The notes beneath the pieces were generated by a model that saw only the letters and a list, made by a program, of their open reading frames with translations, searched no databases and had not been told where the DNA came from. Below are positions 11,145 through 34,075 of a DNA stretch of 34,203 nt, in pieces. The position numbers and the translations under genes were made by a program. The stretch spans positions 1 through 34,203 of the forward strand of contig QKAK01000177.1 of NCBI GenBank assembly GCA_003247225.1, in the 5' to 3' direction. Position 1 is the stretch's first letter, and the number at the start of each line of letters is the position of its first letter. This DNA is from Spirochaetota bacterium (GTDB lineage: Bacteria > Spirochaetota > Spirochaetia > Treponematales > UBA12059).

Positions 11145-11194
11145 GCGCGCCGGCCCGAGCCGAGCCCGGGCCGAGCCGGGGCGCGAGCTCGGGC

Positions 11195-11223
11195 TTGCGC
11201 CCCGGCCGAGATGCGCGTATGCT
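11195..11223 (+). promoter_or_regulatory. Promoter of the RluA-type gene; nearly leaderless
   Basis: -35 TTGCGC (11195-11200), a 17-bp spacer, -10 TATGCT (11218-11223), then 8 nt to the ATG at 11232 with no SD. Confidence 0.4.
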
Positions 11224-11231
11224 TTGGCGCC

Positions 11232-17200: not shown

Positions 17201-18994
17201 CGGGCGCTTGCGGGCCGGCGGGCGGTCGAGAGGGCCGAGGTACTCGACGGCCCAGGCGTAGCCGGCGACGTCCGGGTCGGCCGGGGGCTCCCAGGCGAGC
17301 GCGAAGCTGCTCGACGCGATGAAGCCGTCGGCCGACGCGGCCGGGGGCGTGATCGCCGGCTTGCCCGGCGGCGTCGTGTCTCGTACGAAGCGCACCCTCG
17401 ACGCGCCCGACCAGTTGCCGGCGTAGTCCTGGGCCTTGATCGAGAAGAACCAGTCGCCGTCCTCGTCCGCGTCGAAGGCGGCGCGGGTCAGCGTCTCGAG
17501 CGCCATGACCGTCTCGGGCGGCTCCGCCTCGGGGTCCCTGGTCCACAGGTAGGAGAACCCGAGTATGCCCGACGAATCGTCCGGCGCCGTCCATCGGACG
17601 GTGGCGCGGCCGCGCCTGGTCGGCTCGCCCGGGACGAAGTCGACGGCCGAGATGGCGGGCGGCCGGGCGCTCGTGTCGGGTACCATGCCGATGACCGAGG
17701 AGAGCGAGCCCGAGCCGGTCTGCCAGAACGCGTACAGGCCGCGGTCGGTCGATACGACCCTGCCGAAGGTGCCGTCGCCGCGGGACCTGCCCGACAGGTC
17801 GCGCTCGGTCCAGAGCGCCCCCGACTTGAACGCGGTGAAGACGCGGTTCGCGCCCCGCCGGTCGTCGAACCAGGCTATGGCCGGCTCCGCGTCCGGCCCC
17901 TCGCCGAGCGGGTACAGCCTCGGCTCCGAGCAGGCGCCCTGGCCGAGGGTGACGCGCTCCGGGCTGTCCGGAACGAGCGCGCCGTCGGCGTCGAGGCGGG
18001 CCGCGTAGACCTGAGCCGGCCCGGATAGCAGCCTGCGCTCCCAGGTCAGCCAGAGCGATCCGCCTATCCTGGCCAGGTGCGGCCGTTGGTTGTCGAAGCG
18101 GTCCGGGGCCTGGGCCTCGCGGTGCACCGGGTCCATGAAGCCGGTGATCCGTAGGGGCGGCGACCAGGACAGGCCGGCGTCCCGCGATACGGTCGAGTAT
18201 AGCTGGTAGCTCGGGCGGTCGCCGCCGGACAGCGTCTGGAACACGACGACGTCCGTCCCGTCGACGGAGGCGGCCGTCGGCAGGAAGTTCGGGTCGAGGC
18301 CCACGTCGCCGCCGACGAACGGGGCCAGCGGCGCCCACGACGAGCCGTCGTCCGACCGGGTATAGAAGATCGACAGCGACTCGTAGGTCGTGGCGTCGCC
18401 GCCGCCGGCGGGCGTCCGCGTGAAGACCTGGCTCCTCGTGACGAACAGGTACCAGCCGCCGGCCGCGTTCGAGTAGACGCGCGGCGCTACCACCGGCTGG
18501 TCCAGCTCGAGCGCCGACAGTGGCCGGAACGACCGTCCCGAGTCGTCCGACGCGTAGACCTCCACGCGCCGCTCGCCGGCCGAGGCCGCTATCAGCAGCC
18601 GGCCGTTGCCGTCGTCGTCGGCGGAGAACAGGGCCGGCGCGCTCAGGCTGCGCTCGCCCTTGGCCTTGTCGCCTATGGCCTCGTAGAGGAACGGGCCGGC
18701 GAAGCGGTCGCGCCTGAATACGCCGTCGTCCCTGTACGACGCCATCGACAGCCAGGCCTCGCCGCCGCCGTCGGTCGGCACGTTCTCCTGCCAGATCGCT
18801 ATGACGTCGCCGGAGGTCCTGATCGCCTGAGGATAGGCGCCGACGCCCTTGGACAGGCGCGCGGGGGCTTCCCAGTAGAAGTCCGTCGGCGCGGCCTCGG
18901 CGGCCGGCGATACGAGCAGCGCGCAGGCGGCGCAGGCCGCCGCCAGGGCCAGTCCTCGTCCCGCGCGGCGGGATCGTGCGTTCGGAGCGCCCAT
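14222..18994 (-). CDS. Giant SpoIIE-type PP2C phosphatase with sialidase-like propeller, fibronectin-III-like domains and HAMP
   Basis: About 1590 aa. Order: signal peptide (~1-38); periplasmic beta-propeller (~40-440) with three Asp-box motifs (SDDSGRSF ~152, SDDGSSW ~217, SRDAGLSW ~273); two FnIII-like modules (~450-680); a further beta domain; TM1 (~810-835); TM2 (~880-905); a second sensor with coiled coil (~905-1130); TM3 (~1135-1160); HAMP; PP2C (~1250-end). Phosphatase motifs: GVSGDYFDY (~1265), CDVSGKGVPAAL, YTDGFEES (~1418), and a terminal QYDDLTMM separated from YTDG by an unusual insertion of over 100 residues. It probably senses an outside ligand and dephosphorylates an anti-sigma antagonist. 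Possible starts are ATG 18994 (GAGGGG 12 nt away) or TTG 19003 (3 nt away, overlapping the previous stop as TTGA). Confidence 0.88.
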   Translation of the reverse strand: MGAPNARSRRAGRGLALAAACAACALLVSPAAEAAPTDFYWEAPARLSKGVGAYPQAIRTSGDVIAIWQENVPTDGGGEAWLSMASYRDDGVFRRDRFAGPFLYEAIGDKAKGERSLSAPALFSADDDGNGRLLIAASAGERRVEVYASDDSGRSFRPLSALELDQPVVAPRVYSNAAGGWYLFVTRSQVFTRTPAGGGDATTYESLSIFYTRSDDGSSWAPLAPFVGGDVGLDPNFLPTAASVDGTDVVVFQTLSGGDRPSYQLYSTVSRDAGLSWSPPLRITGFMDPVHREAQAPDRFDNQRPHLARIGGSLWLTWERRLLSGPAQVYAARLDADGALVPDSPERVTLGQGACSEPRLYPLGEGPDAEPAIAWFDDRRGANRVFTAFKSGALWTERDLSGRSRGDGTFGRVVSTDRGLYAFWQTGSGSLSSVIGMVPDTSARPPAISAVDFVPGEPTRRGRATVRWTAPDDSSGILGFSYLWTRDPEAEPPETVMALETLTRAAFDADEDGDWFFSIKAQDYAGNWSGASRVRFVRDTTPPGKPAITPPAASADGFIASSSFALAWEPPADPDVAGYAWAVEYLGPLDRPPARKRPAPPADEGARRPAAAYDLWPTTDYERWLWTSAEPAPPAPSLRTRSPSTSFSNVDDGYWVFSVAAIDGVGNVGEPTRALLRTDKFRPYTAVTDVGARRDDFGNLELSVVGRGFLDDGAVTRLAIDADGREPFDYVFSLADRQYSIASDRLLRVAEVSDLRAGSYRIGLYHPDRGWYFTAPRLAVDYSGTVKFGERGAPWSPTWSFAPAPTSIVSVSALFTLAALLLPSLGIVLSLRHVVALAGQMRAARAEAIALLEGKPMPESERRRKAERAVRRGAGLTAKFAMTISLLVLFIVALVSIRLGMQMLDTQSETLARGLEQRARVLLESAVQGGKSYLPAKNVLELSLLPNQASAVAEARYLTITGFGGSGATNPDVVWASNDPDIASKIDGPALLPGVSLLGDPLSPRVASMAAEIDARANAEVGAIAEALQQMQDEGRALAANLDAASQDRLAEIASGASVMERELNERLAAIADASVASEPGFDATKLGATAEEYVFYKPILFRQGREAVYYRGLVRLSVSTETIVAQVNAARDELVRSVAVVAAIALAIGVVGAFGLSRIIIGPLMKVVRGIETIRDESDKRKLADFSIDVKSRDELSILAGTINEMTAGLVEAAKEAEFLTVGKEVQKMFIPLVTNELGEKLTTGYDDQAGHVFFGYYEGAKGVSGDYFDYTPLDGRFWAFIKCDVSGKGVPAALIMVGVATIFTTELTGWSFKRDGIHLDRITYKINDFIEKRGFKGRFAAFIMGVYDSQTGAAYLCHAGDNILRVYEADKRAVVTHTLDSAPTAGTFPNDLVESTSPYKQVLLPLGHGDTMLLYTDGFEESSRAMRGPDFKPLYRVQKLRDRDGNESEHREAQVEQLGEERIKAVTEAIMARGSYTLRKEGDPLGPDAAYDFDFSTLDAGPDDLVLGIAAVEKVFRIIPDPTAGADDKVIVDARIDEVLAKCWKQYPRFCRDKQPHPDPRRKEYLYYGHLKEDEQYDDLTMMLIRRK

Positions 18995-18999
18995 GGCCG

Positions 19000-21900
19000 T
19001 CAATAGCCCCTCGCCGATAGGCGCGCGTCGAGGTCGGAGACCTTCTGCATCGTCGCGCCCTTGGGATAGACGGCCGCGAGCCTCGTCAGCCTGACGCGGG
19101 CGTTCAGGTAGTCGCCGGCGGTGAAGAAGGCTACCGCCTCGTTATACAGCGTCTCGGCGGCGCTCGGCAGGACGATAGCGGTGTCGCCCCCGATGTAGGT
19201 GGCGATGCGGTCCTTGAGGGCGCTGGCCTCGGCGTTGTTCGGGTCGAGGCCGAGCGCCTTCTCGAGCTGGGCGCGCGCGAAGGTGAACTGGGCTACCTGA
19301 CCCGAGTCGACGATGCGCCTGGCCGCGGCGACCAGCGATCGCGCCTCGGCTATCGCCTTCGGGTCGGGCGGCGGCTGCCTGAAGCCGAGCAGTATCTCGG
19401 CCCGCTCGATCTGGGCGCGCAGCCCCGGGTAGCGCGGGTTGATCGCCTCGAGGTCCTGCAGGTCGCTGTAGGCCGTCGTCAGGTCGGCCCGCTCGTCGAT
19501 CTTGGCCTTGGCCTCGTTGAACAGCCTCGCGAAGCTGCGGCCGAACTCGTCGGGGTCGGAGAGCTGGTCGATCTGCAGCTCGAGCACGCGAGCCTCCTGG
19601 TTGAGCGGGAAGATCACCTTGACCTCGGAAATCTTCTGCTTGGCCTGCGTGAAGGCGCGGATGGCGCCGGTCTTATCACGCTTGGCGAGCAGGCTCGCGC
19701 CTTCCTGGTAGTATTGCTTGGCCAGGGACAGGAGCTGGCTCATCTCCGGGAAGAGCGGCGCCGTGACGGGGATGTCGCGGCCGGTCTTGACCGATAGCGC
19801 GGTCTGCACCAGCTTGAGCCAGTACTCGACCTCGACCTCGGGCGTCGAGTTGGTGGTGCTCCAGCGCGCCCGGGCCTGGAGCAGCGTCGACTCGGCCCGG
19901 TCGAACTCGCCCTGCAGGTAGAGGTTCCGGCCGCCGGTCACGAGGCGCCTCGTCTCGGCGACGACCAGGTCGTTCTCGGTCTTCAGGATGGTCGCGGCCA
20001 GCTCCGACAGGAGCCGGTCGGACTCGACCCTGAGGACGGGGTCCTGCTCGATCGATAGCGACGCGAGGTAGCGCTCGCGGGCCCGCTCGAGGCGCTCCCT
20101 GGCGGTCTCGAAATTGTTGGCCCTGAGGGCGTTCCTGGCCTCCGCCACGCGCCGCTCCGCCTCGAGCTTGCTCGAGTCGGCGAGCCGCTTCTGCTCGCTG
20201 GCGCGGACGGTCAGCGCCCTCGAGTCGGCGACGCGCTCGGCGGCCGACGCGGCGAGCGCCCTGGCCCGCTCGGTCCACTCGAGCACGGACGCGTCGCTCG
20301 CCACGTAGTCCGGCCTGGAGGCCTGCGACGCGACGAAGGCGTCGATGTCGGCCCGGAGCGCCGCGAGTATACTGTCGGCGGACGCCAGCGACGACAGCGC
20401 CTTGCCCGGATAGCGGAACACGGCGTCGGGCAGCTGCGGGTCGTCCGACGGCACGCCGTCGAGCGAGGTCCGCGCCGATTCTATCGCCGCGACCGCCCGT
20501 TCGGCGGCGGCGGACAGGAGGCCGTACCTGAAGGAGGCCGCCGCGGCCACCGCTCCGGTCTCGAGCGTCCTCGACAGCCCGAGCGCGTTCGCTATGCGGC
20601 CGTCCAGCTCGCCCTGGGCGGCCTGGGACTTGTCGGAGCCGTAGCCGGCGCGGGTCCACTCGGCCATCCTGGTGGCCGACTCGCCCGACTCGAGCCTGAG
20701 CGCGTCGATCTCCCGCTGCGCCCGGACGAACGCGAGGCGGCTGGACTCGTAGGCGTCGAGCGTAGCGGCGGGATTAGCCGTATCCGGCTCGACGGCGGCG
20801 AGCGCGCGCTCGTCCGCGTCGGCCGCCCGCCTGACGGCCGCGAGCGCGGCGTAGGTCCTGGCGCTCGCCGCGAGGTGGCGCAGGCGCAGGTAGTCCTCGC
20901 CCTTGAGCTCGAGCACCGCCTGCCCGAGCGTCGTCGAACGCTCTGCCAGGTCGCTCGGCGCGTAGTGGGCCCAGAGCGACAGGAGCGCCAGGCCCCGGTC
21001 GGCGAGCGCCGCCGCGCCGGAGAACAGGCCGCCCGCCGCGTCCCACGACCCGGCGTCGTAGGCGGCGAGGGCCTCTCCGGCCTCGGACTCGAGGCGCCCC
21101 TCGAGGGCGGTCTGGGCCGAGCCGAGCGCGTTGGCCCAGCGGGCGTCGATGGCGCCGGCGACGCCCTCGAGCCGGCCCTCGGACTGGCGGCCGAGCACGA
21201 GGCGGAACGCGAACGGCAGGAAGGAGTTGTCGGTGACCGTCTCGTCCTTGGACGACAGCTCGGCGAACGAGCGCTCGAGGGCGCGGCCCTGATCGACGAC
21301 GAAGCGTCGGGTCGCGGCCATGGAGGCCGCGGACGACTGGGCCAGCGGCCATGCCGCGTCTATCGCCGCGGCCTCGCCGCCCGAGTACGCGGCGGCGAGC
21401 TCCTCGAAGGCCGCCCTCATCGCCTCGCCCTGCTCCTCGAAGGTGATTATCGCGCCGGATACCGACGCTACCCTCTCGAACGCCCCGTCGACGAAGCCCG
21501 GGTCCAGGCCGGCCTCGGTGAATTCCTGCCGGTACAGGGTGAAGCCGGCCTCGTAGGCCCTGGCGGCCTCGACGTACCGCCCCGAGTCGATCAGCGATCG
21601 GCCCTGGGCCATGTATTCCTCGAATTTCGCGCGGTTATAGGTGAATAGCGCCAGGTCCTTCGTCTTGGCCACGAACTCCTGGACCGCAGGGTTCGGCGCC
21701 CGTTCGTAGCCCTCGAGCTCGCGGATCATCGCGAGCTTCTTCTCCTGGTTGGTCGGGTCGTTGGTCATCACGTCTATCAGCGTCTCGGCCGACTTGTTAT
21801 AGGCCGCCCTGATCTTGGTGATCTGCCTGAGCTTCTTCTGCGCCTCGTCGAAGCGGTCGGGATAGCGCTTCATGAAATCGGTGATGTAGAGGATGGCCTC

Positions 21901-22032
21901 GTCGTACTTCTGCTGCGCGATCAGGGTATCCGCGTAGGCCAACGGATCCTCGCGGCCGCCCATTGCCCAGGCGGTCGAGGCGCAGCAGAGGATGATAAGC
22001 ATGACCAGCGCCAACGGGCGGCTCATTTTCAT
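19000..22032 (-). CDS. Large TPR/coiled-coil periplasmic protein
   Basis: 1010 aa with a signal peptide ending TAWA|MGG (residues ~1-24). The rest is almost wholly helical with recurring TPR-like units: ADTLIAQQKYDEAILYITDF near the N-terminus, LYLQGEFDRAESTLLQARARW, LLAKRDKTGAIRAFTQAKQK, and near the C-terminus LYNEAVAFFTAGDYLNARVRL. The middle (~200-680) is Ala/Glu-rich and coiled-coil-like. It is probably a periplasmic scaffold. The frame is open to 22224, but ATG 22032 is where the signal peptide begins. GGAGGAG is present but 17 nt away, and a TAGGCGCCTA palindrome lies between it and the start. The stop overlaps the possible TTG start of the giant phosphatase, so the two are coupled and may form one signalling unit. 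Confidence 0.82.
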   Translation of the reverse strand: MKMSRPLALVMLIILCCASTAWAMGGREDPLAYADTLIAQQKYDEAILYITDFMKRYPDRFDEAQKKLRQITKIRAAYNKSAETLIDVMTNDPTNQEKKLAMIRELEGYERAPNPAVQEFVAKTKDLALFTYNRAKFEEYMAQGRSLIDSGRYVEAARAYEAGFTLYRQEFTEAGLDPGFVDGAFERVASVSGAIITFEEQGEAMRAAFEELAAAYSGGEAAAIDAAWPLAQSSAASMAATRRFVVDQGRALERSFAELSSKDETVTDNSFLPFAFRLVLGRQSEGRLEGVAGAIDARWANALGSAQTALEGRLESEAGEALAAYDAGSWDAAGGLFSGAAALADRGLALLSLWAHYAPSDLAERSTTLGQAVLELKGEDYLRLRHLAASARTYAALAAVRRAADADERALAAVEPDTANPAATLDAYESSRLAFVRAQREIDALRLESGESATRMAEWTRAGYGSDKSQAAQGELDGRIANALGLSRTLETGAVAAAASFRYGLLSAAAERAVAAIESARTSLDGVPSDDPQLPDAVFRYPGKALSSLASADSILAALRADIDAFVASQASRPDYVASDASVLEWTERARALAASAAERVADSRALTVRASEQKRLADSSKLEAERRVAEARNALRANNFETARERLERARERYLASLSIEQDPVLRVESDRLLSELAATILKTENDLVVAETRRLVTGGRNLYLQGEFDRAESTLLQARARWSTTNSTPEVEVEYWLKLVQTALSVKTGRDIPVTAPLFPEMSQLLSLAKQYYQEGASLLAKRDKTGAIRAFTQAKQKISEVKVIFPLNQEARVLELQIDQLSDPDEFGRSFARLFNEAKAKIDERADLTTAYSDLQDLEAINPRYPGLRAQIERAEILLGFRQPPPDPKAIAEARSLVAAARRIVDSGQVAQFTFARAQLEKALGLDPNNAEASALKDRIATYIGGDTAIVLPSAAETLYNEAVAFFTAGDYLNARVRLTRLAAVYPKGATMQKVSDLDARLSARGY

Positions 22033-22035
22033 ATA

Positions 22036-22045
22036 TAGGCGCCTA
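22036..22045. promoter_or_regulatory. 10-bp perfect palindrome at the TPR gene start
   Basis: TAGGCGCCTA lies 3 nt upstream of the TPR gene's ATG (22032, minus strand), between the SD-like GGAGGAG and the start codon. It may be an operator half-site, or may fold to bring the SD closer. It is short, so chance cannot be excluded. Confidence 0.25.
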
Positions 22046-22171
22046 AAGGCTCCTCCAGCGAGCTGGCCGGACGCTCCGAGGCCCGGCTCCTCAGTATCAT
22101 TGTCGGCGCGCGCCCGGCTAAGCTGAGCGTTACTATCGTTTATACGGATAGAAATTATCGCTATCGTACTG

Positions 22172-22177
22172 TATATT
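22172..22177 (+). promoter_or_regulatory. -10-like TATATT in the AT-rich divergent region
   Basis: The 155-bp gap between the divergent TPR and UPF0164 genes has a markedly AT-rich half (22130-22187), typical of promoters in such a GC-rich genome. TATATT lies 10 nt before the UPF0164 ATG. I found no good -35, and no SD. Confidence 0.3.
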
Positions 22178-22187
22178 CCATTGTAGC

Positions 22188-23459
22188 ATGAAGAGGATAG
22201 CCGGCCTCGCGCTACTGCTAGCATTACTCCCGCGCGCCCGGGCCGAAGCCCAGGACCTGTACGCCGACGCCTACGAATTCATCTACAGCATGTTCTCCCT
22301 CGGCGGCGAGGACCCGAACGAGGGCATGACCACCTTCCTGTCGACGCTGGTGCCGGTAGGCGGCAGCGCCGAGAGCATGGGCATGGCCTTCGTAGCGGTG
22401 GCCGACGACGCGTCCTTCCTCGAGCTGAACCCGGCGGGCAGCGCGCTGCAGGACCGCACGCAGTTCGCGTTCTACCACAACAACTGGATAGCGGATACGC
22501 GGCTCGAGGCGGTCGCCTATACGATGCGCCTCGGCTCGCTCGGCCTGTCGCTCGGCGGCAAGTGGCTGTACCTGCCGTTCACCGAGTACTCCGACTTCGG
22601 CGAGCGGCTCGCCACCGGCTACTACTCCGAGGCCCTCGGCACCTTCAACGCGTCGCTCCACCTGTTCCCCGGCTACTATTTCTACGGCGTCTCGCTCGGC
22701 GCCAGCGCCAAGCTTGCGTTCAGGTCGATGCCGAGCTACAGCGACGACGAGGGCGGCTTCGTCTCCGGGCTGTCCCAGTCGGCGCTGGCCGTGATGGCGG
22801 ACATAGGCGCGCTGACCAGGTTCAACCTGTTCAAGCTCTATAATTCCCGCGAGAAGAATTTCGCCGTCGGCCTGGCGCTCAAGAACGTGGGTCCCGCGGT
22901 GCGGGACGAGCCGCTGCCGACCGTCGCTACCGCCGGCTTCTCGTATAAGTTCCTGAAGCCCATCCTCGTGTCGGCCGATATCAGCAAGCCGATCAACCTG
23001 GTCGACCCGTCCCTGAGCGAGTCGTTCTACTGGGGCGTCGGCTACCGGATGACCGTGACCGATTTCTGGGACCTGCAGGCCGGCTTCCTGGTCAAGGGCG
23101 GCAACCCGAGGATCAGCGTCGGCGCGGCCATAGACTTCTCCCCGCTGACCCTCGAGGTCAACTATACCCTCGACCTGACCACGCAGTTCTCGCCGCTCAA
23201 CCGCATGAGCATCGAGGCGCGCTTCGATATGGGCGACATGGGACGGGCGGCCAAGGCCGCCCGGGCCGAGGAGCTGTACCTGCAGGGCCTGGACGCGTAC
23301 GCGGCCGGAGACCTGCAGCTGGCCATCTCGTACTGGGACGAGTCGCTCAGGCTCAACCCGAACTTCGACCCGGCCAGGGAGAACCGCGACACCGCGCAGG
23401 AGGCCCTGGACCTCCGCCAGCGCATGCTCGAGCTGCAGCGGCTGGAGCGGGGCGACTGA
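22188..23459 (+). CDS. UPF0164/PorV-like outer-membrane beta-barrel protein with C-terminal TPR
   Basis: 423 aa. Signal peptide at ~1-21. The N-terminal VGGSAESMGMAFVAVADDASFLELNPAGSA block is the hallmark of the UPF0164 (Treponema FadL-like) and PorV/PorQ barrel families. The barrel runs through ~345 with alternating strands. The last ~70 residues leave the barrel and form a TPR unit (EELYLQGLDAYAAGDLQLAISYWDESLRLNP) and a helix, presumably periplasmic. FadL-like proteins move hydrophobic compounds such as long-chain fatty acids; that role here is inferred, though it would suit the fatty-acid activation genes at 24406-27543. It is divergent from the large TPR protein. Confidence 0.85.
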   Translation: MKRIAGLALLLALLPRARAEAQDLYADAYEFIYSMFSLGGEDPNEGMTTFLSTLVPVGGSAESMGMAFVAVADDASFLELNPAGSALQDRTQFAFYHNNWIADTRLEAVAYTMRLGSLGLSLGGKWLYLPFTEYSDFGERLATGYYSEALGTFNASLHLFPGYYFYGVSLGASAKLAFRSMPSYSDDEGGFVSGLSQSALAVMADIGALTRFNLFKLYNSREKNFAVGLALKNVGPAVRDEPLPTVATAGFSYKFLKPILVSADISKPINLVDPSLSESFYWGVGYRMTVTDFWDLQAGFLVKGGNPRISVGAAIDFSPLTLEVNYTLDLTTQFSPLNRMSIEARFDMGDMGRAAKAARAEELYLQGLDAYAAGDLQLAISYWDESLRLNPNFDPARENRDTAQEALDLRQRMLELQRLERGD

Positions 23460-23483: not shown

Positions 23484-24065
23484 GTGCTGAGAACCGTCCT
23501 AGGGCTGCTGTCCGCGGCCACGTCGATCTACATGCTGCTATGCGTCGTCCGCGTGTTCATGTCATGGCTGCCGAGCGCCCGGCTAGGCAAGCCGGCCGAG
23601 CTCGTGGAGCGCGCCACCGAGCCGTACCTGTCCTGGTGGAGGCGCTTCCCGGTACTCCGGTCCGGCGGCGTCGATTTCTCGCCGATAGCCGCGCTCGCCG
23701 CGCTCTCGGGCCTGTCGAGGCTGTTCACCGTCGCGTCGTACGGCGGGCTGAGCCTCGGCGTGGCGCTGGCCCTGGTCGTCGAGGTCGCCTGGTCGCCGTT
23801 CGGCTTCCTGCTCGGCTTCTTCGCCGTGCTCGTCATAGCGCGCATCGTCGCCTACGCCGCCAGGTGGAACAGCCTCAACCCGCTGTGGCGGGCAATCGAC
23901 GCGATGATCAACCCCGTCCTGTTCAGGATAAAGCGCTTCGTCTATAAGGACAGGATCGTCAACTATATGCAGGGCCTTATAACCGGCGCGGTGGCCCTCG
24001 TCGGGGCCAGGGTGCTGCTCGGGATGGCCTTCGGCCTCGTCATAGGCCTCCTGCAGAAGCTGTAA
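23484..24065 (+). CDS. YggT-family integral membrane protein (two repeats)
   Basis: 193 aa, close to E. coli YggT (188 aa), built of two YggT repeats: RVFMSWLPSARLGKP...ATEPYLSWWR and, in the second half, RIVAYAARWNSLNPLWRAIDAMINPVLFRIKRF. Each is flanked by hydrophobic helices, giving about four in total. The function is unclear; proposed roles involve osmotic stress and membrane or division-site protein assembly. The GTG start is backed by GGAG at 23475-23478. It lies 24 nt after the UPF0164 stop and 11 nt before yhbY, so the three are probably one operon. Confidence 0.85.
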   Translation: MLRTVLGLLSAATSIYMLLCVVRVFMSWLPSARLGKPAELVERATEPYLSWWRRFPVLRSGGVDFSPIAALAALSGLSRLFTVASYGGLSLGVALALVVEVAWSPFGFLLGFFAVLVIARIVAYAARWNSLNPLWRAIDAMINPVLFRIKRFVYKDRIVNYMQGLITGAVALVGARVLLGMAFGLVIGLLQKL

Positions 24066-24076
24066 AGGAACAACTC

Positions 24077-24370
24077 ATGCTGACATCGAAACAGCGGGCC
24101 AGGCTGTCGTCGCTCGCGAACGAGCTCAACCCCATCGTATTCCTCGGCAAGGCCGGCCTCGTCGACGGCGTCCACGAGGCGCTCGACCGGGCCCTGACCG
24201 ACCACGAGCTGGTCAAGCTGCGCTTCGTCGACTTCAAGGGCGAGCGCAAGGAGCTGGCCAGGGAGCTGGCCGAGAAGGCGGGGGCCGAGCTCGTGCGCGT
24301 GATCGGGCACGTGGCCATCATCTATAGGCCGAGCCCGGACCCCGAGAAGCGGTCGATCGCGCTCGACTAA
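24077..24370 (+). CDS. yhbY: YhbY/CRM-domain RNA-binding protein
   Basis: 97 aa, a single CRM domain. It has the N-terminal LTSKQRARLSSLANELNPIVFLGKAGL (family 'Lt.kqr..LR..ah.l.pvv.iGk.Gl'), then VKLRFVD and the C-terminal IGHVAIIYRPSP matching 'iG...vLYR'. YhbY binds pre-50S ribosomal particles and assists rRNA maturation. The SD AAAGGAA lies 6-10 nt upstream of the ATG. It is the last gene of the run before a hairpin terminator. Confidence 0.93.
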   Translation: MLTSKQRARLSSLANELNPIVFLGKAGLVDGVHEALDRALTDHELVKLRFVDFKGERKELARELAEKAGAELVRVIGHVAIIYRPSPDPEKRSIALD

Positions 24371-24373
24371 GCG

Positions 24374-24403
24374 GGCGACGGGGCCGCGCGCCGGCCCCTC
24401 GCC
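24374..24403. terminator. Bidirectional hairpin between convergent yhbY and plsY
   Basis: A 12-bp stem with one bulged C (24374-24378 plus 24380-24386, pairing with 24392-24403) and a 5-nt CGCGC loop fills the 35-nt gap between the two convergent stops. There is no clear T-run on either strand. Confidence 0.5.
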
Positions 24404-24405
24404 GT

Positions 24406-25080
24406 TCACTCGTCCTTGAGGCCCTGGTACTCCGCGGCGCGATGCCGCATGAACGAGCCGTTGAACCACAGCAGCAAGAGCGACATCGCGAAGGCGCAGG
24501 CGACGACCGGCCAGGGGTGGCCGCCTATCGATATATGCGCGAACAGCGGCACGTCGACGAGCAGGGTCGTCGCCAGGGTGACGAAGGGCGTCAGGATGAC
24601 GAACATGATGGGCGTCCACTGGGCGTACTTGTGCTCGGTATGCCTGAAGGCCGTGATCGCGACGACGCCGCCCGCCAGCAGCGAGAAGGCGAACTCGACC
24701 GGCACCATGAACAGCGAGACGCCGAGCATCGTGCCTATGCCGCCGCCGCCCTTGAAACCGTAGAACAGCGGCCTGCAGTGGCCGACGACCGCGGCCATGC
24801 CGACCGCGTACGTGAACGCGAGGCTGGCCCCGTCGTCGCCCTTGAATAGCCAGAGCCTCGCCGCGAGCATCGGGACGACGGCCTTGAGGCTGTCCAGCGC
24901 GCAGACGAGGACGCCCCAGCCCTTGCCGACCGTGCGCGCGACGTTCGAGGTGCCGGGGTTCAGGTTGCCCTGCTTCCGTATGTCCTTCCCGGTCACCAGC
25001 CTCGTCACGACGACGGCGTAGAGTACCGAGCCCGATAGGTAGCTGACGGCGACTGCGAGCGTCGCGGCGAGGTAGCGCAT
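24406..25080 (-). CDS. plsY: PlsY-family acyl-phosphate:glycerol-3-phosphate acyltransferase (divergent active site)
   Basis: 224 aa, about six to seven hydrophobic helices, aligned over its whole length with PlsY (DUF205). Motif 1 reads IRKQGNLNPGTSNVAR where the family has R..GSGN.GATN..R. Motif 2 reads DSLKAVVP for D.lKG. Motif 3 reads GHCRPLFYGFKGGGGIGT for GH..pvf..FKGGKG.AT. Thus the P-loop lysine and the first SG of motif 1 are replaced. Canonical PlsY transfers an acyl chain from acyl-phosphate to glycerol-3-phosphate in the inner membrane. Position supports that role: it follows fakB and fakA by 11 nt, and FakAB makes acyl-phosphate. Altered substrate preference, or a non-acyltransferase role, is possible. 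Confidence 0.82.
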   Translation of the reverse strand: MRYLAATLAVAVSYLSGSVLYAVVVTRLVTGKDIRKQGNLNPGTSNVARTVGKGWGVLVCALDSLKAVVPMLAARLWLFKGDDGASLAFTYAVGMAAVVGHCRPLFYGFKGGGGIGTMLGVSLFMVPVEFAFSLLAGGVVAITAFRHTEHKYAQWTPIMFVILTPFVTLATTLLVDVPLFAHISIGGHPWPVVACAFAMSLLLLWFNGSFMRHRAAEYQGLKDE

Positions 25081-25091
25081 GGCGTCCTTCC

Positions 25092-26711
25092 TTACTCGAG
25101 CGATATGATCAGGAGCTCGCGGCCCTGGCCGCCGTACAGCGACTCGAATTCGGCGTCCGGGTTGATCGCGGCGACGCCCGCCCGGAGGCCGTCGAGCAGG
25201 GCCGGGTCGAAGTCACGCCCCAGGTAGGCCGAGACGTTGCCCTTGCCGGCCAGGCCGGCCGCCTCGAGGGCCTCGAGCGCCGCGCCGATCGGGTCGTCGC
25301 CCATGGCCGCCACCTCGTCGCCGCTCATGACGAAGTACGCGCCCTCCGGTATGGCCAGGTCGCCGAAGGTGGAGTCGGAGGCGCTGCGGTACAGGCATAG
25401 GCACGCGGCCAGGCCGACGCAGTCGCCCATGTTGCGGGCGTTGTCGCCGAGGCCGTCGTTCTCCGAGTATCCGTAGGCCGCCGCCACGCCCTCGACGACG
25501 TTCCTCGTCGGCACGACGACCACGTCCCTCCCGCAGAGGTCCCTGGCCAGGGTCGCCGCCGGAGCGATGTTGGCGTTGTTCGGCAGGATGATGACGGCGG
25601 GCGCGTCGATCTCGGTCAGCGCGTCCAGGATGGCGCCGGCGCTCGGCAGCTCCTTGCCGTACTCGAGGCAGCGCGCGACGCCGAGCCCGGCGAACAGCTC
25701 GGCGAAGCCCGGGCCGGGCACGCAGGCGAGCACGGCGCAGGCCGAGCCGTCGAGGTGGGCCGCGACGACGGCCGCCGCCTGCTCGCGCATGTCCTCGACC
25801 TTGGACGAGCCGATGCGCCCTATCGCGCCCAGGTAGCCGATGACGTCGTCCGGGTCGTCGGTGTGGATGTGCAGCTTGATGAAGCGCGGGTCGATCACGA
25901 GCGCTATGCTGTTGCCGCGGCTGCCGAGGAAGTCGCGGAGCGAGCCGCCGTCGCAGCCGCGCGGGTCCTCGACGTAGACCTCGGTGCAGTAGCGGTACTC
26001 GGGCTGGGGCTTCCAGTTGACGAGGGCGGCCGGGTCCGGCTTGAAGCGGTATCCGTCCTCCGGCTCGGCGGTCACCGAGGCGTTGGTCAGGCCGCGGAGC
26101 ATGCCCTCGACGATGAAGATGAAGCCGAGGGCGCCGGCGTCGACCACGCCGGCCTTGGCGAGCAGCGGCAGCATGGTCGGCGTCAGGAACAGCGACTCCC
26201 TGGCGGCCGCCAGCGCGTGGCGCAGGCAGCCGCCTATGTCGAGGACCGGGCACTCGTGCAGCGCGCGGGTCATCGCCGCGATGATGGTGATCATCGTGCC
26301 CTCGACCGGGGTGAACAGCGAGGAGTTGACCTGGTAGGCGCCGTTCTCGAAGCCCTCGAGCAGCTCCGCCCGGGTCAGCCGCTCGTGGCGCTCGACCGCG
26401 GCCAGGAAGCCGGAGAAGAACCAGGCGACGATGAAGCCGGAGTTGCCCCGGCTGTTGCGCAGCAGCTCTCGCCGCATCGACTCGGACAGCTCGCGGAGGC
26501 TCGACGCCGGCCGGTCGCCGAGGGCGCGCAGGCCGGCCTGCAGCGTGGCGACCATGTTGGCGCCCGTGTCGCCGTCGGGCACCGGGAACACGTTCAGGTT
26601 GTCGAGCACCGCCTGGTTCAGGCTGAGGTACTCGCCCGCCTTGACGAAGGCCCCGCGCAGGTCCTCGGCGTCGAGGGCCTCAATCGATATGAGCGATGTA
26701 TCCGATGTCAT
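25092..26711 (-). CDS. fakA: FakA-like fatty-acid kinase subunit (DhaL/DAK2 domain)
   Basis: 539 aa, matching the ~550 aa of FakA. The N-terminal DhaL/DAK2 nucleotide-binding domain (~15-210) has the Mg-ATP motif NVFPVPDGDTGANM (Asp46, Asp48). A middle region carries RGNSIALVIDPRFIKLHIHTDDP, and the C-terminal FakA domain (~320-539) contains ILPNNANIAPAA. FakA phosphorylates a fatty acid held by FakB to give acyl-phosphate. The ATG at 26711 lies inside the end of fakB (32-nt overlap), which implies tight coupling of the two subunits. The next start, plsY, is 11 nt beyond the stop. Confidence 0.88.
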   Translation of the reverse strand: MTSDTSLISIEALDAEDLRGAFVKAGEYLSLNQAVLDNLNVFPVPDGDTGANMVATLQAGLRALGDRPASSLRELSESMRRELLRNSRGNSGFIVAWFFSGFLAAVERHERLTRAELLEGFENGAYQVNSSLFTPVEGTMITIIAAMTRALHECPVLDIGGCLRHALAAARESLFLTPTMLPLLAKAGVVDAGALGFIFIVEGMLRGLTNASVTAEPEDGYRFKPDPAALVNWKPQPEYRYCTEVYVEDPRGCDGGSLRDFLGSRGNSIALVIDPRFIKLHIHTDDPDDVIGYLGAIGRIGSSKVEDMREQAAAVVAAHLDGSACAVLACVPGPGFAELFAGLGVARCLEYGKELPSAGAILDALTEIDAPAVIILPNNANIAPAATLARDLCGRDVVVVPTRNVVEGVAAAYGYSENDGLGDNARNMGDCVGLAACLCLYRSASDSTFGDLAIPEGAYFVMSGDEVAAMGDDPIGAALEALEAAGLAGKGNVSAYLGRDFDPALLDGLRAGVAAINPDAEFESLYGGQGRELLIISLE

Positions 26712-27543
26712 AGAAGTCCGGGCCCGCGTGGGCCATGTTGCTATGGTTGGTGTACGACAGGGTGATCGCGGCCTCGTAGCCGAGGCCCTCGACGGCGCGC
26801 TTCAGGTGCTCGGCCTCCTCCTCGTGCGGGCCTATGACGCTGATGACCGCCGATAGGCGCCTGGCGCCGCGCGCCTCCATGTCCTCCTTGACGATGGACG
26901 CGAAGCGCTGGTTGGCCTGGACGTGGTTCTTGACCTTGCCGATCGACTTGAGCACGCCGGGCTCCTCCGAGGAGCTCAGGATGGCGATGATCTTCATCGC
27001 GGAACCGAATACGGCCTTGGCCAGGCCTATCCTGCCGGTGCGGTGCAGGTAGAACAGGTCGTAGACGACGCCGAGGTGCCTCGTCGCGGCGCGGGCGCTC
27101 TCGAAGCGGGCGATCACCTCCTCGTACGACAGGCCCGCGCGGATCGCGAGCGCGGTGTCCAGCACGAGCGCGCTGTACGCGCCGGTCAGGTGCCACGAGT
27201 CAAGGAAGGTGACGTCGAGGTCCTTGCGCTCGGAGACTATCTTCCTGACGACGGCCGCGGTGGCGGACGAGGCGCGGCTCGACTGATGGAGCGACAGGAT
27301 GCGCTCGCCCTTATGCCGCTCGTACAGGGCGACGAGGTCCTCTTCCCTGAGGCCCGAGGTGGTCACCTTGTTGTCCTTGTCCTTGAGCAGCCGCCTGAGC
27401 TCGTCCTTCTCGGCTCGGCTCATGCGGATGGAGGCCGGGTAGGGCTCGCCGTTCAGGAACATCGGGTACTCGACGACGCCGACGCCCAGCTCGTCGAGGG
27501 TCTCCGGGCTCAGCTGCACCGCCGAATCGGCTATCAGTACCAT
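26680..27543 (-). CDS. DegV/FakB-like fatty-acid-binding protein
   Basis: 287 aa DegV fold: N-terminal IADSAVQLSPE, KVTTSGLREED (the DegV 'TSqPs' loop), LHQSSRASSATAAV (family 'sS.LSGTy.sA'), VTFLDSWHLTGAYSALV and LHRTGRIGLAKAV (family 'L.kgGRi'). DegV/FakB proteins bind a single fatty acid and present its carboxylate to FakA. The overlap with fakA supports this pairing. Several loop residues differ from typical FakB, so the preferred acyl chain may differ. The start is set by an SD (AGGAGG) 7 nt upstream, which sits in the 14-nt gap after the reductase stop. Confidence 0.86.
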   Translation of the reverse strand: MVLIADSAVQLSPETLDELGVGVVEYPMFLNGEPYPASIRMSRAEKDELRRLLKDKDNKVTTSGLREEDLVALYERHKGERILSLHQSSRASSATAAVVRKIVSERKDLDVTFLDSWHLTGAYSALVLDTALAIRAGLSYEEVIARFESARAATRHLGVVYDLFYLHRTGRIGLAKAVFGSAMKIIAILSSSEEPGVLKSIGKVKNHVQANQRFASIVKEDMEARGARRLSAVISVIGPHEEEAEHLKRAVEGLGYEAAITLSYTNHSNMAHAGPDFYDIGYIAHID

Positions 27544-27557
27544 CGCTCGCCTCCTGG

Positions 27558-28769
27558 CTATCGGTCGGGATCCTCGGGAACGTCTATACTACAGTTGGAC
27601 AACGGGAAAGCCTTGCACGGGTGCACGAAACCGTAGCGTTCGTCGGCGGCCCTGGCGCCGGGGCCCGGCGGCGAGTAGCAGCGGCCCTCGACGAGGCGCG
27701 AGCGGCACCAGCCGCACTCGCCCGCCCGGCACAGCGACGGCGGGCGCAGCCCGGCGCGCTCCATCGCGACGAGCAGGGGCTCTTCCGCGGCGGCCGGGAT
27801 CGAGACGGTCTCGGGGCCGATGCGCGCCTCGAGCGTAAAGGTCCGCGAGGCGGCTTCCGGCGGGTAGCCGGGCCAGTCCTCGGGGCTGAAGCGCGCCGGG
27901 GCGGCCTCGAGCCGGACGCGCCGGGGCGGCCGATCTAGGCCGGCCAGCTCGCCGAGCGCGAAACGCCGCATCGCGTCCGGGCCGCTGACGAAAAACGCCG
28001 CGTCGTCGGCCCAAGTCGCCGCGCGCTCGATCAGGGCGGCCGTGATATAGCCGCGCTCCCCGGTCCAGGCGCCGGCCGGTCCGTCCCGCTCGACGACCGG
28101 CAGGTACGAGAAGCGGTCCGGATAGCGCTTCGCCAGCTCGCCGAAATAGTCGGAGAACAGTAGCTCCGCGGGCTCGGCCGCGCCGTGGATCAGCGCGACC
28201 CGGGCCTTGCCGCGGGCGAGCGCGTCGCCGACGATGGACCTGAACGGCGTGACGCCGCAGCCGCCGGCCAGGCAGACGAGGCTATCGCCGTCGCGGAGCG
28301 GCTCGCGGTAGAAGACGCCGGAAGGCCCGGAGCAGCGGACGGTCGAGCCCGGCTCCCAGGTCTCGCGGATGATCGGCGCGCAGAAGCCGCCCGGCGCGTC
28401 CTTGACGGTCAGCTCGTAGTAGCCGCCGCCGGCCGACTCGTCCGGGGTCGAGGATATGGAGTAGGGGCGCGAGGCCCGCGCCCCGCCGGCCTCGACGAAT
28501 ACGCTCAGGTACTGGCCGGCCCTGAACGGCGGCAGCCTCGCCGAGCCGTCCGACGGCGCCAGGCGATAGGTACTCGTCGTCGGGCTTTCGTCGCGCACGG
28601 AGACTATCCGTAGTGCGAGCCCGGCCGGATGCAGGGCCTCGGCCAGCTCGGCGACGTGGCCCCTCGGCTTGGCCTCGCCCGGCGCCTCGCGGAAGCGCCT
28701 CGAGCGCTCGCGGAACGGCGCGACGAAGGCCAGGGCGTCGCGGAGCGGGCCGCGTATCGTCACGCTCAT
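27558..28769 (-). CDS. Ferredoxin-reductase-like FAD/NAD(P) protein with C-terminal [2Fe-2S] domain
   Basis: 403 aa. After an ~50-residue Arg-rich N-terminal segment comes a flavin domain with the RxYS motif (RPYSISS), an NAD(P)-binding domain with GGCGVTPFRSI and FFVSGPDAM, and a plant-type [2Fe-2S] ferredoxin domain with Cys ligands in LCRAGECGWC and a fourth in the HPCKAF/SNC region. The order FAD-NAD-2Fe2S is that of Hcr- and oxygenase-reductase proteins that pass electrons from NAD(P)H to a partner enzyme. The ATG overlaps the stop of the CrtI-like gene (ATGA), so that flavoprotein is the obvious partner. The frame is open upstream, but that part merely shadows the neighbour. Confidence 0.9.
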   Translation of the reverse strand: MSVTIRGPLRDALAFVAPFRERSRRFREAPGEAKPRGHVAELAEALHPAGLALRIVSVRDESPTTSTYRLAPSDGSARLPPFRAGQYLSVFVEAGGARASRPYSISSTPDESAGGGYYELTVKDAPGGFCAPIIRETWEPGSTVRCSGPSGVFYREPLRDGDSLVCLAGGCGVTPFRSIVGDALARGKARVALIHGAAEPAELLFSDYFGELAKRYPDRFSYLPVVERDGPAGAWTGERGYITAALIERAATWADDAAFFVSGPDAMRRFALGELAGLDRPPRRVRLEAAPARFSPEDWPGYPPEAASRTFTLEARIGPETVSIPAAAEEPLLVAMERAGLRPPSLCRAGECGWCRSRLVEGRCYSPPGPGARAADERYGFVHPCKAFPLSNCSIDVPEDPDR

Positions 28770-30328
28770 CGTCCGCCCCCTCGGCCGAGCCTGGCCAGGG
28801 TCCGCTCGGCGGCGGCCTTGCCCGAGAGTATCGAGCTGCCGTAGCCGTGGCAGCGGTACGAGAACCCGCCGCAGAAGTCCAGCCCGGCCAGGTAGCGCTC
28901 GCGGTCGAGCGACACGGCGCGCGGCAGGATCGAGTCCCAGGGCGCCGGCTCGTAGCCGTATACGACGCCGTCCCAGGCGCCGGTATAGCGCGCGAAGGTT
29001 ACCGGCGTCGCGACCTCCAGCTCCTCGATACGGCCGCGCAGGCGCGCGCCGGTGGCCGCCTCGAACTGGCCGATCAGCTTGTCCGCCAGCAGCGACTTTA
29101 CCCTGAAGTAGTCGTCGGCCTCGACGCAGGACCAGGCCTCCGGCCTGACGCCGGCGGTGATCGACACGATCGAGGTGCCCGGCGGCGAGCAGTCGGGGAT
29201 GGCCGAGTTGAGGCAGATGGACGCCTGCATCACCTGGTCCGAGTCGAGGTCGTACAGCGAGTCGTACAGTAGCCGCGTGTCCATGTGGGGCGCGATGAAG
29301 TAGCTGTAGTCGGTCAGGCCGAGCGTCTCCCGGTCGGCGTCCAGGCCCAGGTAGACGACGACGACCGAGAAGCCGTGCTTCCTGGCGTTCACGGCGCGCA
29401 GAGCCGCCTGCGGGCGCTCGGAGGCCGGGTAGACGAGCGACTCGAAGACGGCCGTCGGCGAGGCGTTGCAGACCACCTCGGCGGCCCGTATCGTCTCGCC
29501 CGAGGCCGTCGTCACGCCCCATGCGGCGCCGTCGTCGACCAGGACGCGGTCAACCCGGGCGTTGTAGCGGACCTCGCCTCCGTTGCGGCGTATGGCGGCG
29601 TCGAACGCGACGGCTATCTCGTGCGATCGCATCGTCGGTATGACCGCGCCCGACGACAGGTACGAGTGCAGCAGCGAGGCCCAGATAGGGAAGGAGAGGG
29701 TATCGGCCGGAACGCCGAGGTAGCACCAGTACGCGAACAGGATGTCGTGGGCGCGCTTCGGTACGCCTAGGGCCGCGGCCACCTCGGCCGCCGTCGCGGA
29801 GGCCGTGCGCACGAAGTCCCCGTGGTCGCGCAGCAGCCTGGCCAGGTTCGGCGAGCGGGCGCGCGCGTTCAGGTAGCCGAAGCCGTCCTGCACCTCGCGG
29901 CACAGCTCGAAGTACGCGGTGACGGACGGGCGGCTGCCAGGCGCGGCGCGCTCGACCTCGGCTATGCAGGCCTCTATGCCGAAGGGCATGCGTACGTCGA
30001 CGCCGTCGTCGGTCAGGATGAGCCGGTAGGCCTCGGGCACGCTCGCGAAGCCTACGTCGAGGCCGGCGTCGTCGAGCAGGTAGCGCACCACGCCGGTCGC
30101 CTCGGAGATGGAGCGCATATCCGGCAGCTCGTGCAACGACGGCTCGAACTCGAAGCGGCCGCGCGCGAAGCTCGTGGCGAAGCCGCCGGGCAGGTTATGC
30201 CGTTCGAGGAGTAGCGTCTTGGCTCCGGCGCGCGATAGCTCGAACGCCGCGCAGAGGCCTCCGAGGCCGGCCCCGACGACGACGCAGTCGTAGGCGCCGG
30301 GCGCGCCGGCCCGACCGATTGTTGCCAT
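28766..30328 (-). CDS. CrtI/RetSat-like FAD-dependent oxidoreductase (phytoene desaturase / retinol saturase family)
   Basis: 520 aa. The N-terminal dinucleotide fold is CVVVGAGLGGLCAAFELSRAG (GxGxxG at 19-24), followed by LLERHNLPGGFATSF, the CrtI-type second motif. The C-terminal FAD motif is LDFCGGFSYRCHGYGSSILSGKAAAE. Family members desaturate, isomerise or saturate long conjugated or isoprenoid chains. No carotenoid genes are seen here; instead the downstream genes handle fatty acids. ATG 30328 is chosen because TATACT ends 7 nt upstream with GGAG between; a longer frame to 30412 would run through the promoter and a hairpin. It is the first gene of the minus-strand cluster ending at plsY. 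Confidence 0.87.
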   Translation of the reverse strand: MATIGRAGAPGAYDCVVVGAGLGGLCAAFELSRAGAKTLLLERHNLPGGFATSFARGRFEFEPSLHELPDMRSISEATGVVRYLLDDAGLDVGFASVPEAYRLILTDDGVDVRMPFGIEACIAEVERAAPGSRPSVTAYFELCREVQDGFGYLNARARSPNLARLLRDHGDFVRTASATAAEVAAALGVPKRAHDILFAYWCYLGVPADTLSFPIWASLLHSYLSSGAVIPTMRSHEIAVAFDAAIRRNGGEVRYNARVDRVLVDDGAAWGVTTASGETIRAAEVVCNASPTAVFESLVYPASERPQAALRAVNARKHGFSVVVVYLGLDADRETLGLTDYSYFIAPHMDTRLLYDSLYDLDSDQVMQASICLNSAIPDCSPPGTSIVSITAGVRPEAWSCVEADDYFRVKSLLADKLIGQFEAATGARLRGRIEELEVATPVTFARYTGAWDGVVYGYEPAPWDSILPRAVSLDRERYLAGLDFCGGFSYRCHGYGSSILSGKAAAERTLARLGRGGGR

Positions 30329-30335
30329 CCGCTCC

Positions 30336-30363
30336 AGTATACACGCTATCGGGAATGCCGCAA
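30336..30363 (-). promoter_or_regulatory. Promoter of the CrtI-like/FNR/fakB/fakA/plsY cluster
   Basis: Minus strand: -35 TTGCGG (30358-30363), a 16-bp spacer, -10 TATACT (30336-30341). The ATG follows after 7 nt that include GGAG. Confidence 0.45.
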
Positions 30364-30378
30364 ATCGAATCGACCTCG

Positions 30379-30469
30379 GCCGCGCATCCTTGCGCGGCGC
30401 GTCGTCGTCCATGGCGTTCCCGTCCGCCTAGCGGACGGGCCATAGCGTGGCCGCGCCATCCTTGGCGCG
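30379..30469 (-). terminator. Three-hairpin array downstream of the EF-G gene
   Basis: The 162-nt gap between the EF-G stop and the next gene holds three stems. In the order EF-G transcription would meet them: 30452-30457/30464-30469 (6 bp), 30419-30427/30431-30439 (perfect 9 bp, 3-nt loop) and 30379-30385/30392-30398 (7 bp). The two outer hairpins share an identical hexaloop (AAGGAT on the minus strand). They probably end EF-G transcription, although no U-run follows. Confidence 0.45.
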
Positions 30470-30490
30470 CGATGCGGTACTGGGCCTCGG

Positions 30491-32518
<2,028 letters not shown>

Positions 32519-32535
32519 GCGGTGCTCCGGCCGCT

Positions 32536-32565
32536 ACTATAGACGGAAAGGCGCCCCGCTTGCAA
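32536..32565 (-). promoter_or_regulatory. EF-G gene promoter
   Basis: Minus strand: -35 TTGCAA (32560-32565), an 18-bp spacer, -10 TATAGT (32536-32541), with a short leader containing CGGAG. Confidence 0.45.
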
Positions 32566-32659
32566 TATTAGCGCGGCGTTACGAACCTTATGTACCGCGC
32601 GGTCCGGGCCGGACCTACCGCGCTCATGACGCCGAGAAACGACACGAGGAGTACCTGCA

Positions 32660-34075
32660 ATGGCTAAGCCGAAGGGCGAGCGCTTCGAGCGCGACCTCCA
32701 GTACTACAAATTCTGCGCGTACGGTTTCCTGAAGGACCTGCGCTTCTTCGATCCCTTCATGATACTCATGTTCCTGGACAAGGGCCTGTCCTACGCGCAG
32801 ATCGGCAGCCTCTACGCGCTCCGCGAGGTGCTGATCAACGTGATGGAGATACCGTCGGGCGTGATGGCCGACGCGCTCGGCCGCAGGCGGACGATGATAG
32901 CGTCCTTCGCCGCGTACATCGCGTCCTTCGTCGTCTTCTACCTGGCCCGAGGCTACGCGGTCCTCCTACTCGCCATGGGCGTCTTCGCCTTCGGCGACGC
33001 CTTCCGTACCGGCACGCACAAGGCGATGATCTTCGACTACCTGAAGCTCAAGGGCTGGGCGGACCAGAAGACGCACTACTACGGGCACACGCGCTCGTGG
33101 AGCCAGCGGGGCGCCGCGCTGTCGTCGCTCATCGCCGCCGCGCTCGTGATCTGGCGCGGCGAGTACCGCGTCGTCTTCCTGTTCACGCTGATACCCTACG
33201 TGCTCGACCTGCTCCTGATGCTTAGCTACCCCGCCAGCCTGGACGGGCCGCGCAGCGCGGCCTACCGCGCCGCGATCGCCGGCTCGGGCGATCCCGCGCC
33301 GGCGGCGTCCGAGGGCGCCGACGCCCACGCGGCGTCCCGCTCCGTGGCCGAGGAGTTCCGCCACGTGATCATGGCCTTCGCGTCGAGCTTCAAGGACCTC
33401 TTCGTGCTGAAGGCCATATCGAACCAGTCGCTCTATACCGGCTACTACAAGGCCGCCAAGGACTACCTGCAGCCCCTCCTCGCCGGGCTGGCGCTCGGAC
33501 TGCCCGTGCTACTGTCGTGGCGCGAACAGGAGCGGACCGCGCTCGTCGTCGGTCTCGTCTACTTCGTCCTCTACCTGGCCACGTCGTACGCCTCGCGCTC
33601 GTCGGGCCGCTTCTCCGAGCGCTTCGCGTCGCTGGCCAGGCCCCTGAACCTCACGCTGCTCGGAGGCCTGGGGCTCGGCCTCGCCAGCGGCCTGTCCTAT
33701 GGCCTTGGCCTGATCGCCCCGGCCGCCCTGCTCTATACGGGCATCTACGTCATCGAGAACCTGCGGAAGCCGATGGGCATCGCCTACGTCTCCGAGCTGA
33801 TGAACCAGGACGCCCTGGCGACGGCCCTGTCGGCCGAGTCCCAGGCGGAGACCCTCTTCGCCGCCATCGTCTCGCTCGGCCTCGGCTTCGCCGCCGACGC
33901 CCTCGGCCCCGGCATGGGCCTGGCCGTCGTCTCCGGCGCCTGCCTCTGCCTGGGCTTCCTGCTGCGGCTGCCGGAGTCCCGCGATTCGGGGATGAAGGGC
34001 GCGCCGCCGCTCGCGCGCGTAGCGCGGCCCCTCACGGCCTATCGGCTTTCCGGGGTTCCAGCACCCGAAGCGTAA
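32660..34075 (+). CDS. Major facilitator superfamily transporter
   Basis: 471 aa with about twelve hydrophobic segments in two halves separated by a hydrophilic loop (~195-235, rich in Ala/Ser/Asp). The MFS loop 2-3 signature is present as SGVMADALGRRRTMI (family G...D..GRR). The N-terminus is cytosolic and basic (MAKPKGERFERDLQYYKF). The substrate is unknown; such spirochaetal proteins are usually annotated as drug or metabolite exporters. The SD GAGGAG lies about 8 nt before the ATG. Its last 44 nt overlap the 3' end of a convergent gene. No clear promoter is seen in the 141-nt gap divergent from the EF-G gene. Confidence 0.87.
   Translation: MAKPKGERFERDLQYYKFCAYGFLKDLRFFDPFMILMFLDKGLSYAQIGSLYALREVLINVMEIPSGVMADALGRRRTMIASFAAYIASFVVFYLARGYAVLLLAMGVFAFGDAFRTGTHKAMIFDYLKLKGWADQKTHYYGHTRSWSQRGAALSSLIAAALVIWRGEYRVVFLFTLIPYVLDLLLMLSYPASLDGPRSAAYRAAIAGSGDPAPAASEGADAHAASRSVAEEFRHVIMAFASSFKDLFVLKAISNQSLYTGYYKAAKDYLQPLLAGLALGLPVLLSWREQERTALVVGLVYFVLYLATSYASRSSGRFSERFASLARPLNLTLLGGLGLGLASGLSYGLGLIAPAALLYTGIYVIENLRKPMGIAYVSELMNQDALATALSAESQAETLFAAIVSLGLGFAADALGPGMGLAVVSGACLCLGFLLRLPESRDSGMKGAPPLARVARPLTAYRLSGVPAPEA

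Follow-up and report, generated by a model that had tools for sequence, protein, structure and literature searches.

Five adjoining minus-strand genes (24406 to 30328) on a contig of a Spirochaetota bacterium (QKAK01000177.1, assembly GCA_003247225.1; its analysed stretch of 34,203 nucleotides (nt) is referred to here as the window) may form a mobile cassette that modifies and activates fatty acids, in which NAD(P)H-driven saturation would be coupled to acyl-phosphate formation. We give this reading a probability of roughly 50%. The genes encode, in order of transcription, a CrtI-like flavoprotein, an FNR-type reductase, a FakB-type fatty-acid-binding protein, a FakA-type fatty acid kinase and a PlsY-like acyltransferase. 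NAD(P)H would donate electrons to the flavin adenine dinucleotide (FAD) of the reductase, from where they would travel via its [2Fe-2S] cluster to the FAD of the flavoprotein and on to a double bond. The flavoprotein would reduce the C=C bonds of an unsaturated fatty acid, either free or bound to a carrier, perhaps with isomerisation before or together with the reduction. FakB would then bind the free acid, FakA would phosphorylate it to the acyl-phosphate, and the PlsY-like protein would hand the acyl group on, probably to another acceptor, or to glycerol-3-phosphate (G3P) via an altered site. The gene order, the reductase domains, the FakA residues, the missing carotenoid context, the fatty-acid contexts of related loci and the loss of the G3P clamp in the PlsY-like protein can be read from the sequences themselves, while direct electron transfer, the substrate, the direction of the reaction and the acyl acceptor are what we infer beyond the domain assignments.

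The first two genes constitute a redox pair that is far more widespread than the cassette. The flavoprotein (28766 to 30328; 520 amino acids), which Pfam and NCBIfam models place with FAD enzymes of the CrtI/CrtISO/RetSat type and which we regard as a putative fatty-acid saturase or isomerase, matched the Pfam families DAO, Amino_oxidase and NAD_binding_8. Its GxGxxG Rossmann motif for FAD binding (GAGLGG, residues 19-24) is present, and its glycines G19, G21 and G24 do not vary among 70 sequences; the AlphaFold model has a confident fold (predicted local distance difference test score 89.1, predicted template modelling score 0.90). The reductase (27558 to 28769; 403 amino acids) consists of the Pfam domains FAD_binding_6 and NAD_binding_1 and a C-terminal plant-type [2Fe-2S] domain (Fer2). 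Its flavin motif RPYS, nicotinamide motif GG(C/S)G(V/I)TP and cluster cysteines CX4CX2C...C are kept over 61 homologues, as is the LHP of an N-terminal extension (N..A..LHP) that could dock the partner flavoprotein. A scan of 84,980 genomes yielded 246 loci with relatives of the flavoprotein, many of them from rumen or gut, and the best 80 were read for gene order. In 74 of these 80 the FNR gene lies directly behind the CrtI-like gene, and Pfam shows both fused in one protein, with the FNR part N-terminal, in L055 and L056, which are Syntrophales genomes; in the remaining four any FNR is hidden, by the end of the contig in L037, L067 and L075 and by a run of N in L034. An apparent CrtI-FNR fusion in L034 was rejected because its frame spans the stretch of N. 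Judged from this linkage and the conserved motifs, the reductase is the probable electron donor to the flavoprotein. Some variants of the pair were also seen: two clusters in the order CrtI-FNR-CrtI (L057:749-5052 and L059:9989-14292) carry two diverged CrtI-like proteins, perhaps an isomerase and a reductase, on one reductase gene; a DUF5692 (PF18948) membrane protein directly follows the pair in L173 and L174 (G024 and G043, from a second spirochaete family); and one pair (L046) lies on a contig binned as Lokiarchaeota.

Gene contexts in other taxa lend independent support to the view that the pair acts on fatty acids, as the original prediction had proposed for the window. The pair of Treponema bryantii B25 (L079; CrtI-like gene 9989-11521, FNR gene 11518-12714) comes directly after fabD, fabF and fabZ, all being encoded on one strand, and two further loci (L093, L095) have fabF or fabZ just upstream. 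An AMP-dependent acyl-CoA ligase gene is located directly upstream of the pair in L067, the pair and a GntR gene of L060 face a run encoding an acyl-CoA ligase, EtfA, EtfB and an acyl-CoA dehydrogenase, and in L174 the DUF5692 gene is followed by one for a PlsC-type acyltransferase, two genes downstream of the pair. The position behind fabZ raised the possibility that the pair serves as the enoyl-acyl carrier protein (ACP) reductase of Treponema fatty acid synthesis; this was weakened by the presence of a FabV-type enoyl reductase in B25 and in G000 (the window's own genome, an assembly that is 95% complete), G003, G004 and G024, since a plain enoyl-ACP reductase role of the pair is unnecessary where FabV is encoded in the same genome.

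The two genes behind the pair are predicted to activate the fatty acid. The cassette FakB (26680 to 27543; 287 amino acids) scored 143.9 bits against the DegV-fold model TIGR00762 (cut-off 99.7) and aligns over its full length with the solved FakB1 structure 6dke. It reached only 50.1 bits against the FakB1 equivalog model (cut-off 350), and none of its curated-model matches named another FakB class. The cassette FakA (25092 to 26711; 539 amino acids; FakA/YloV type) contains the Pfam domains Dak2, FakA-like_M and FakA-like_C, and its alignment with 7w7h shows that the motif NVFPVPDGDTG, the cysteine of YCTE and the HxH motif are kept. The catalytic residues of Staphylococcus aureus FakA are N32, D38, D40, C240, H282 and H284 (PMC9136124). 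As counterparts of all six are retained, the cassette FakA would be expected to form acyl-phosphate. This type of FakA is dedicated to the cassette: among 59 related genomes, orthologues (56-95% identity) occur only in G000, G003, G005 and G010, all of which bear the pair, and a survey of 393 genomes sampled evenly across the phylum yielded a single orthologue, the window's own. The one FakA, the one DegV and the one PlsY-type protein found in G000 all belong to the cassette, and a genome search found no PlsX there.

The five-gene order recurs beyond chance. It was found in nine spirochaete loci (L031-L036, L038, L042 and L053, the cassette of L042 being cut by the contig end), in which the CrtI-like protein is between 93% and 49-50% identical to that of the window, and thus extends beyond close relatives, which counts in favour of the original prediction. 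The locus and genome lists are not independent, since L031 and the G005 contig, and likewise L034 and the G010 contig, are apparently identical. The identity of only 49-50% at L042 and L053 indicates that the order is either old or has moved as a block. Among the best 80 loci FakB, FakA and PlsY follow the pair only in Spirochaetes. The phylogenetic tree unites the Fak-linked flavoproteins in one group relative to the other labelled groups, adjoining Syntrophales and within a larger clostridial radiation, and one member of the genus to which the window belongs (G004) has, in place of the cassette, a pair of clostridial type accompanied by a GntR regulator; together, the tree placement and the pair of G004 point to horizontal spread. 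Plasmid carriage was not indicated, with zero matches in PLSDB.

The last gene (24406 to 25080; 224 amino acids) changes the picture of where the acyl group would go. Its product is a PlsY homologue by PF02660 (G3P_acyltransf; 118.7 bits), which agrees with the earlier assignment, but a divergent one, scoring 85.8 bits against TIGR00023 (cut-off 137.2); the L032 copy likewise scored below this cut-off (95.0), while two canonical PlsY proteins, those of G003 and G007, exceeded it (148.7 and 160.9, in ascending order). In aaPlsY, the G3P phosphate is held by Ser35, Arg45, Lys104 and Asn180 and the 2-hydroxyl group by Ser142 and His177, and the S35A and K104A mutants show 5% and 7% activity, respectively (PMC5700162). 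All nine cassette copies, that is the window protein and eight orthologues (L031-L036, L038, L053), have Asn in place of Ser35 and Gly in place of Lys104 and lack the HxxN motif, so that within the set of S35, R45, K104, N180 and H177 only R45 is kept in all nine. This subtype was seen only in the cassette, and the canonical PlsY of its relatives retains the G3P-binding residues. At the acyl-phosphate site His92 is kept and Thr41 is present as Ser. Since this site is kept and the G3P clamp is lost, the protein probably still uses acyl-phosphate with a changed acceptor, and the cassette thereby adds a PlsY subtype with an acyl-phosphate site but no G3P site. In view of these losses, the last step of the original prediction, fixation of the chain into phospholipid by PlsY, is doubtful. 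It is nevertheless conceivable that the protein esterifies the modified chains to G3P as in Firmicutes, an outcome that concerns only the acceptor, is compatible with saturation by the pair and seems to us possible rather than likely. In S. aureus the acyl-phosphate formed by Fak is the donor for PlsY (PMC9136124), Arg45 and the acyl-phosphate site are kept, and G000 has no other PlsY-type protein among those found; in addition, the protein may have weak G3P activity, because the two aaPlsY mutants retain 5-7%. Against this stand the loss of the clamp in every copy and the separate canonical PlsY that is retained in G003.

With regard to the substrate of the pair, an isoprenoid has to be considered, in which case the pair would saturate or desaturate polyprenols, carotenoids or retinoids and its gene neighbourhood would be incidental. 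The fold family comprises CrtI, CrtISO and RetSat, and the solved relatives are carotene desaturases. However, by every test run the flavoprotein appears not to be a carotenoid enzyme. Although the carotenoid isomerase model carot_isom (TIGR02730) was the best curated match of every pair member tested (94-216 bits), the window protein reached only 102.6 bits against a cut-off of 586.9, and 98.7 bits against crtI_fam (TIGR02734; cut-off 238.1). Pair members from seven other loci likewise remained under the carotenoid cut-offs, with crtI_fam scores of at most 147. No phytoene/squalene synthase (PF00494) was found in G000, G003, G004, G005, G010 or G024 by a search that was positive in 7 of 14 control genomes, and in relatives that possess a phytoene synthase (G001, G027, G031) its gene adjoins other CrtI paralogues, which scored 445-461 bits against crtI_fam. 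The 62 pair members in the tree form a supported group apart from these paralogues, although long branches near the root leave the exact order of the outgroups unsure. On these points the original prediction held, as no phytoene synthase was found in the genome and the flavoprotein stands apart from true carotenoid desaturases both in the tree and in its scores. The suggestion in that prediction of isoprenoid chains as substrate received no backing from any neighbour gene, as no isoprenoid gene was found among the recurrent neighbours of the pair (111 neighbour proteins), and we consider an isoprenoid substrate improbable.

Somewhat better placed, though still unlikely in our view, is a redox-neutral isomerase similar to CrtISO, in which reduced FAD would be merely catalytic and kept reduced by FNR, and cis double bonds would be converted to trans, or methylene-interrupted to conjugated double bonds, before activation of the acid. 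The consistent best match to the isomerase model would be explained in this way, as would the two CrtI-like proteins per FNR in L057 and L059, as if an isomerase and a reductase shared one donor. On the other hand, no score comes near the isomerase cut-off, and a reductase that is dedicated to the flavoprotein, linked to it throughout and in some cases fused with it suits stoichiometric electron use better than priming. The reverse electron flow, with the pair acting as an anaerobic desaturase that supplies unsaturated fatty acids for the membrane, would be in keeping with the desaturases CrtI and CrtN and with spirochaete neighbour genes that act on acyl chains. Yet, by general redox knowledge it is strongly uphill to desaturate a chain that is not activated when NAD(P)+ has to take up the electrons, and FNR-[2Fe-2S] chains normally carry electrons away from NAD(P)H, which makes this the least probable of the readings considered here. 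The NADH-driven reduction of alkenes is strongly downhill, and the pair would therefore be expected to run toward saturation.

This leads to a more specific and more tentative proposal, namely that the pair is the electron-transfer system saturating unsaturated fatty acids in T. bryantii B25 and in many rumen, gut and sediment anaerobes, that it has spread horizontally, and that in the window lineage it has been joined to a private Fak system and to a re-purposed PlsY with another acceptor. In 1971 a rumen spirochaete designated B25 was reportedly found to hydrogenate unsaturated fatty acids, and judging by the strain name this culture is likely the Treponema bryantii strain B25 named in the record title of L079. 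No gene for the rumen fatty-acid hydrogenation activity was found in the literature and databases searched, and Hackmann and Firkins, who include a fatty acid oxidoreductase of butyrivibrios in their scheme, noted that genome searches were unable to confirm it for want of a family-database entry (PMC4478896). The pair would thus be a two-gene candidate, directly testable in a cultured strain with recorded activity. For Butyrivibrio fibrisolvens, a reductase of conjugated linoleic acid (CLA) is on record through Hughes (1982) and Fukuda (2007), the latter with purification and gene sequencing, as cited in PMC4478896. If the sequence of that CLA reductase belongs to the family of the flavoprotein, novelty is confined to the cassette and does not extend to the enzyme. 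A literature search joining biohydrogenation with phytoene-type oxidoreductases gave a single hit, on the linoleate isomerase of P. acnes (PMC2885616).

Several observations weigh against saturation of fatty acids by the pair. The CrtI family holds desaturases as well as isomerases, so that sequence does not tell the direction of the reaction. The tie of T. bryantii to the 1971 activity depends on one strain name, and the pair may or may not occur in Butyrivibrio, the best-known hydrogenating genus: it was found in 14 of 299 Lachnospiraceae-family genomes and in none of the five genomes of one genus, which could be Butyrivibrio in that its member G405 matched a 16S primer for B. hungatei (PMC4786556). 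Moreover, most pairs have no adjoining lipid gene, and their commonest neighbour is a GntR/FCD regulator (GntR 16, FCD 12 and FadR_C 9 among the 111 neighbour proteins), GntR being the only strongly recurrent family. The idea that this regulator is of the FadR type and proves control by fatty acids was given little weight, its FadR-like score being no better than those for the NanR or PdhR models.

The arrangement of the five genes, with an overlap of 4 nt, a gap of 14 nt, an overlap of 32 nt and a gap of 11 nt in the order CrtI-FNR-FakB-FakA-PlsY, agrees with the earlier description and was confirmed by the reading frames and Pfam domains. The 32-nt overlap of FakB and FakA stands because no further in-frame ATG, GTG or TTG occurs between 26711 and the FakA motif NVFPVPDGDTG. 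The single promoter proposed at the head was not recovered, as a scan of 24000-32700 found no sigma-70-like site there, including the 162-nt spacer (30329 to 30490, minus strand) that separates the cassette from the upstream elongation factor G (EF-G) gene fusA (32518 to 30491). The sole sigma-70-like site of the scanned region lies upstream of fusA (32565-32536). As fusA is encoded on the same strand and stops 162 nt before the cassette, transcription may enter the cassette by read-through. Elsewhere in the window, the region 14222-22224 holds two minus-strand reading frames of great length (about 1594 and 1074 amino acids), arranged head to head with a UPF0164 gene that lies at 22188.

In comparison with known systems, the flavoprotein resembles the CrtISO/CrtI family in its FAD fold, its length and its full-length alignment, and the family profile can be aligned in its entirety with 4rep, a solved gamma-carotene desaturase; the pair differs by its low scores, its constant FNR-[2Fe-2S] partner, the lack of a phytoene synthase and its separate clade. 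Vertebrate RetSat is a flavoprotein of the CrtI/CrtISO superfamily in which the fold is used reductively, and the pair, likened to it by superfamily, differs in having no retinoid context and a dedicated bacterial reductase partner. The CLA reductase of B. fibrisolvens is similar in the reaction proposed here, a likeness of reaction and not of sequence. Related spirochaetes possess a DAK2-FakA_M-DegV fusion (L150, L162-L164, L167, L169; G007, G003:C83, G014), its domains read from the one case scanned, that adjoins a canonical PlsY, with no PlsX alongside. Kinase, binding protein and acyltransferase are thus side by side as in the cassette, but the first two are fused in one protein, the G3P residues of PlsY are kept and no redox pair adjoins. 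Likewise, the cassette shares with the Fak-PlsX/PlsY system of Firmicutes the FakA domains and catalytic residues, the FakB/DegV protein and the expected acyl-phosphate chemistry, and is set apart from it by a genome without PlsX, a PlsY-like protein that has lost the G3P clamp and the redox pair at its head.

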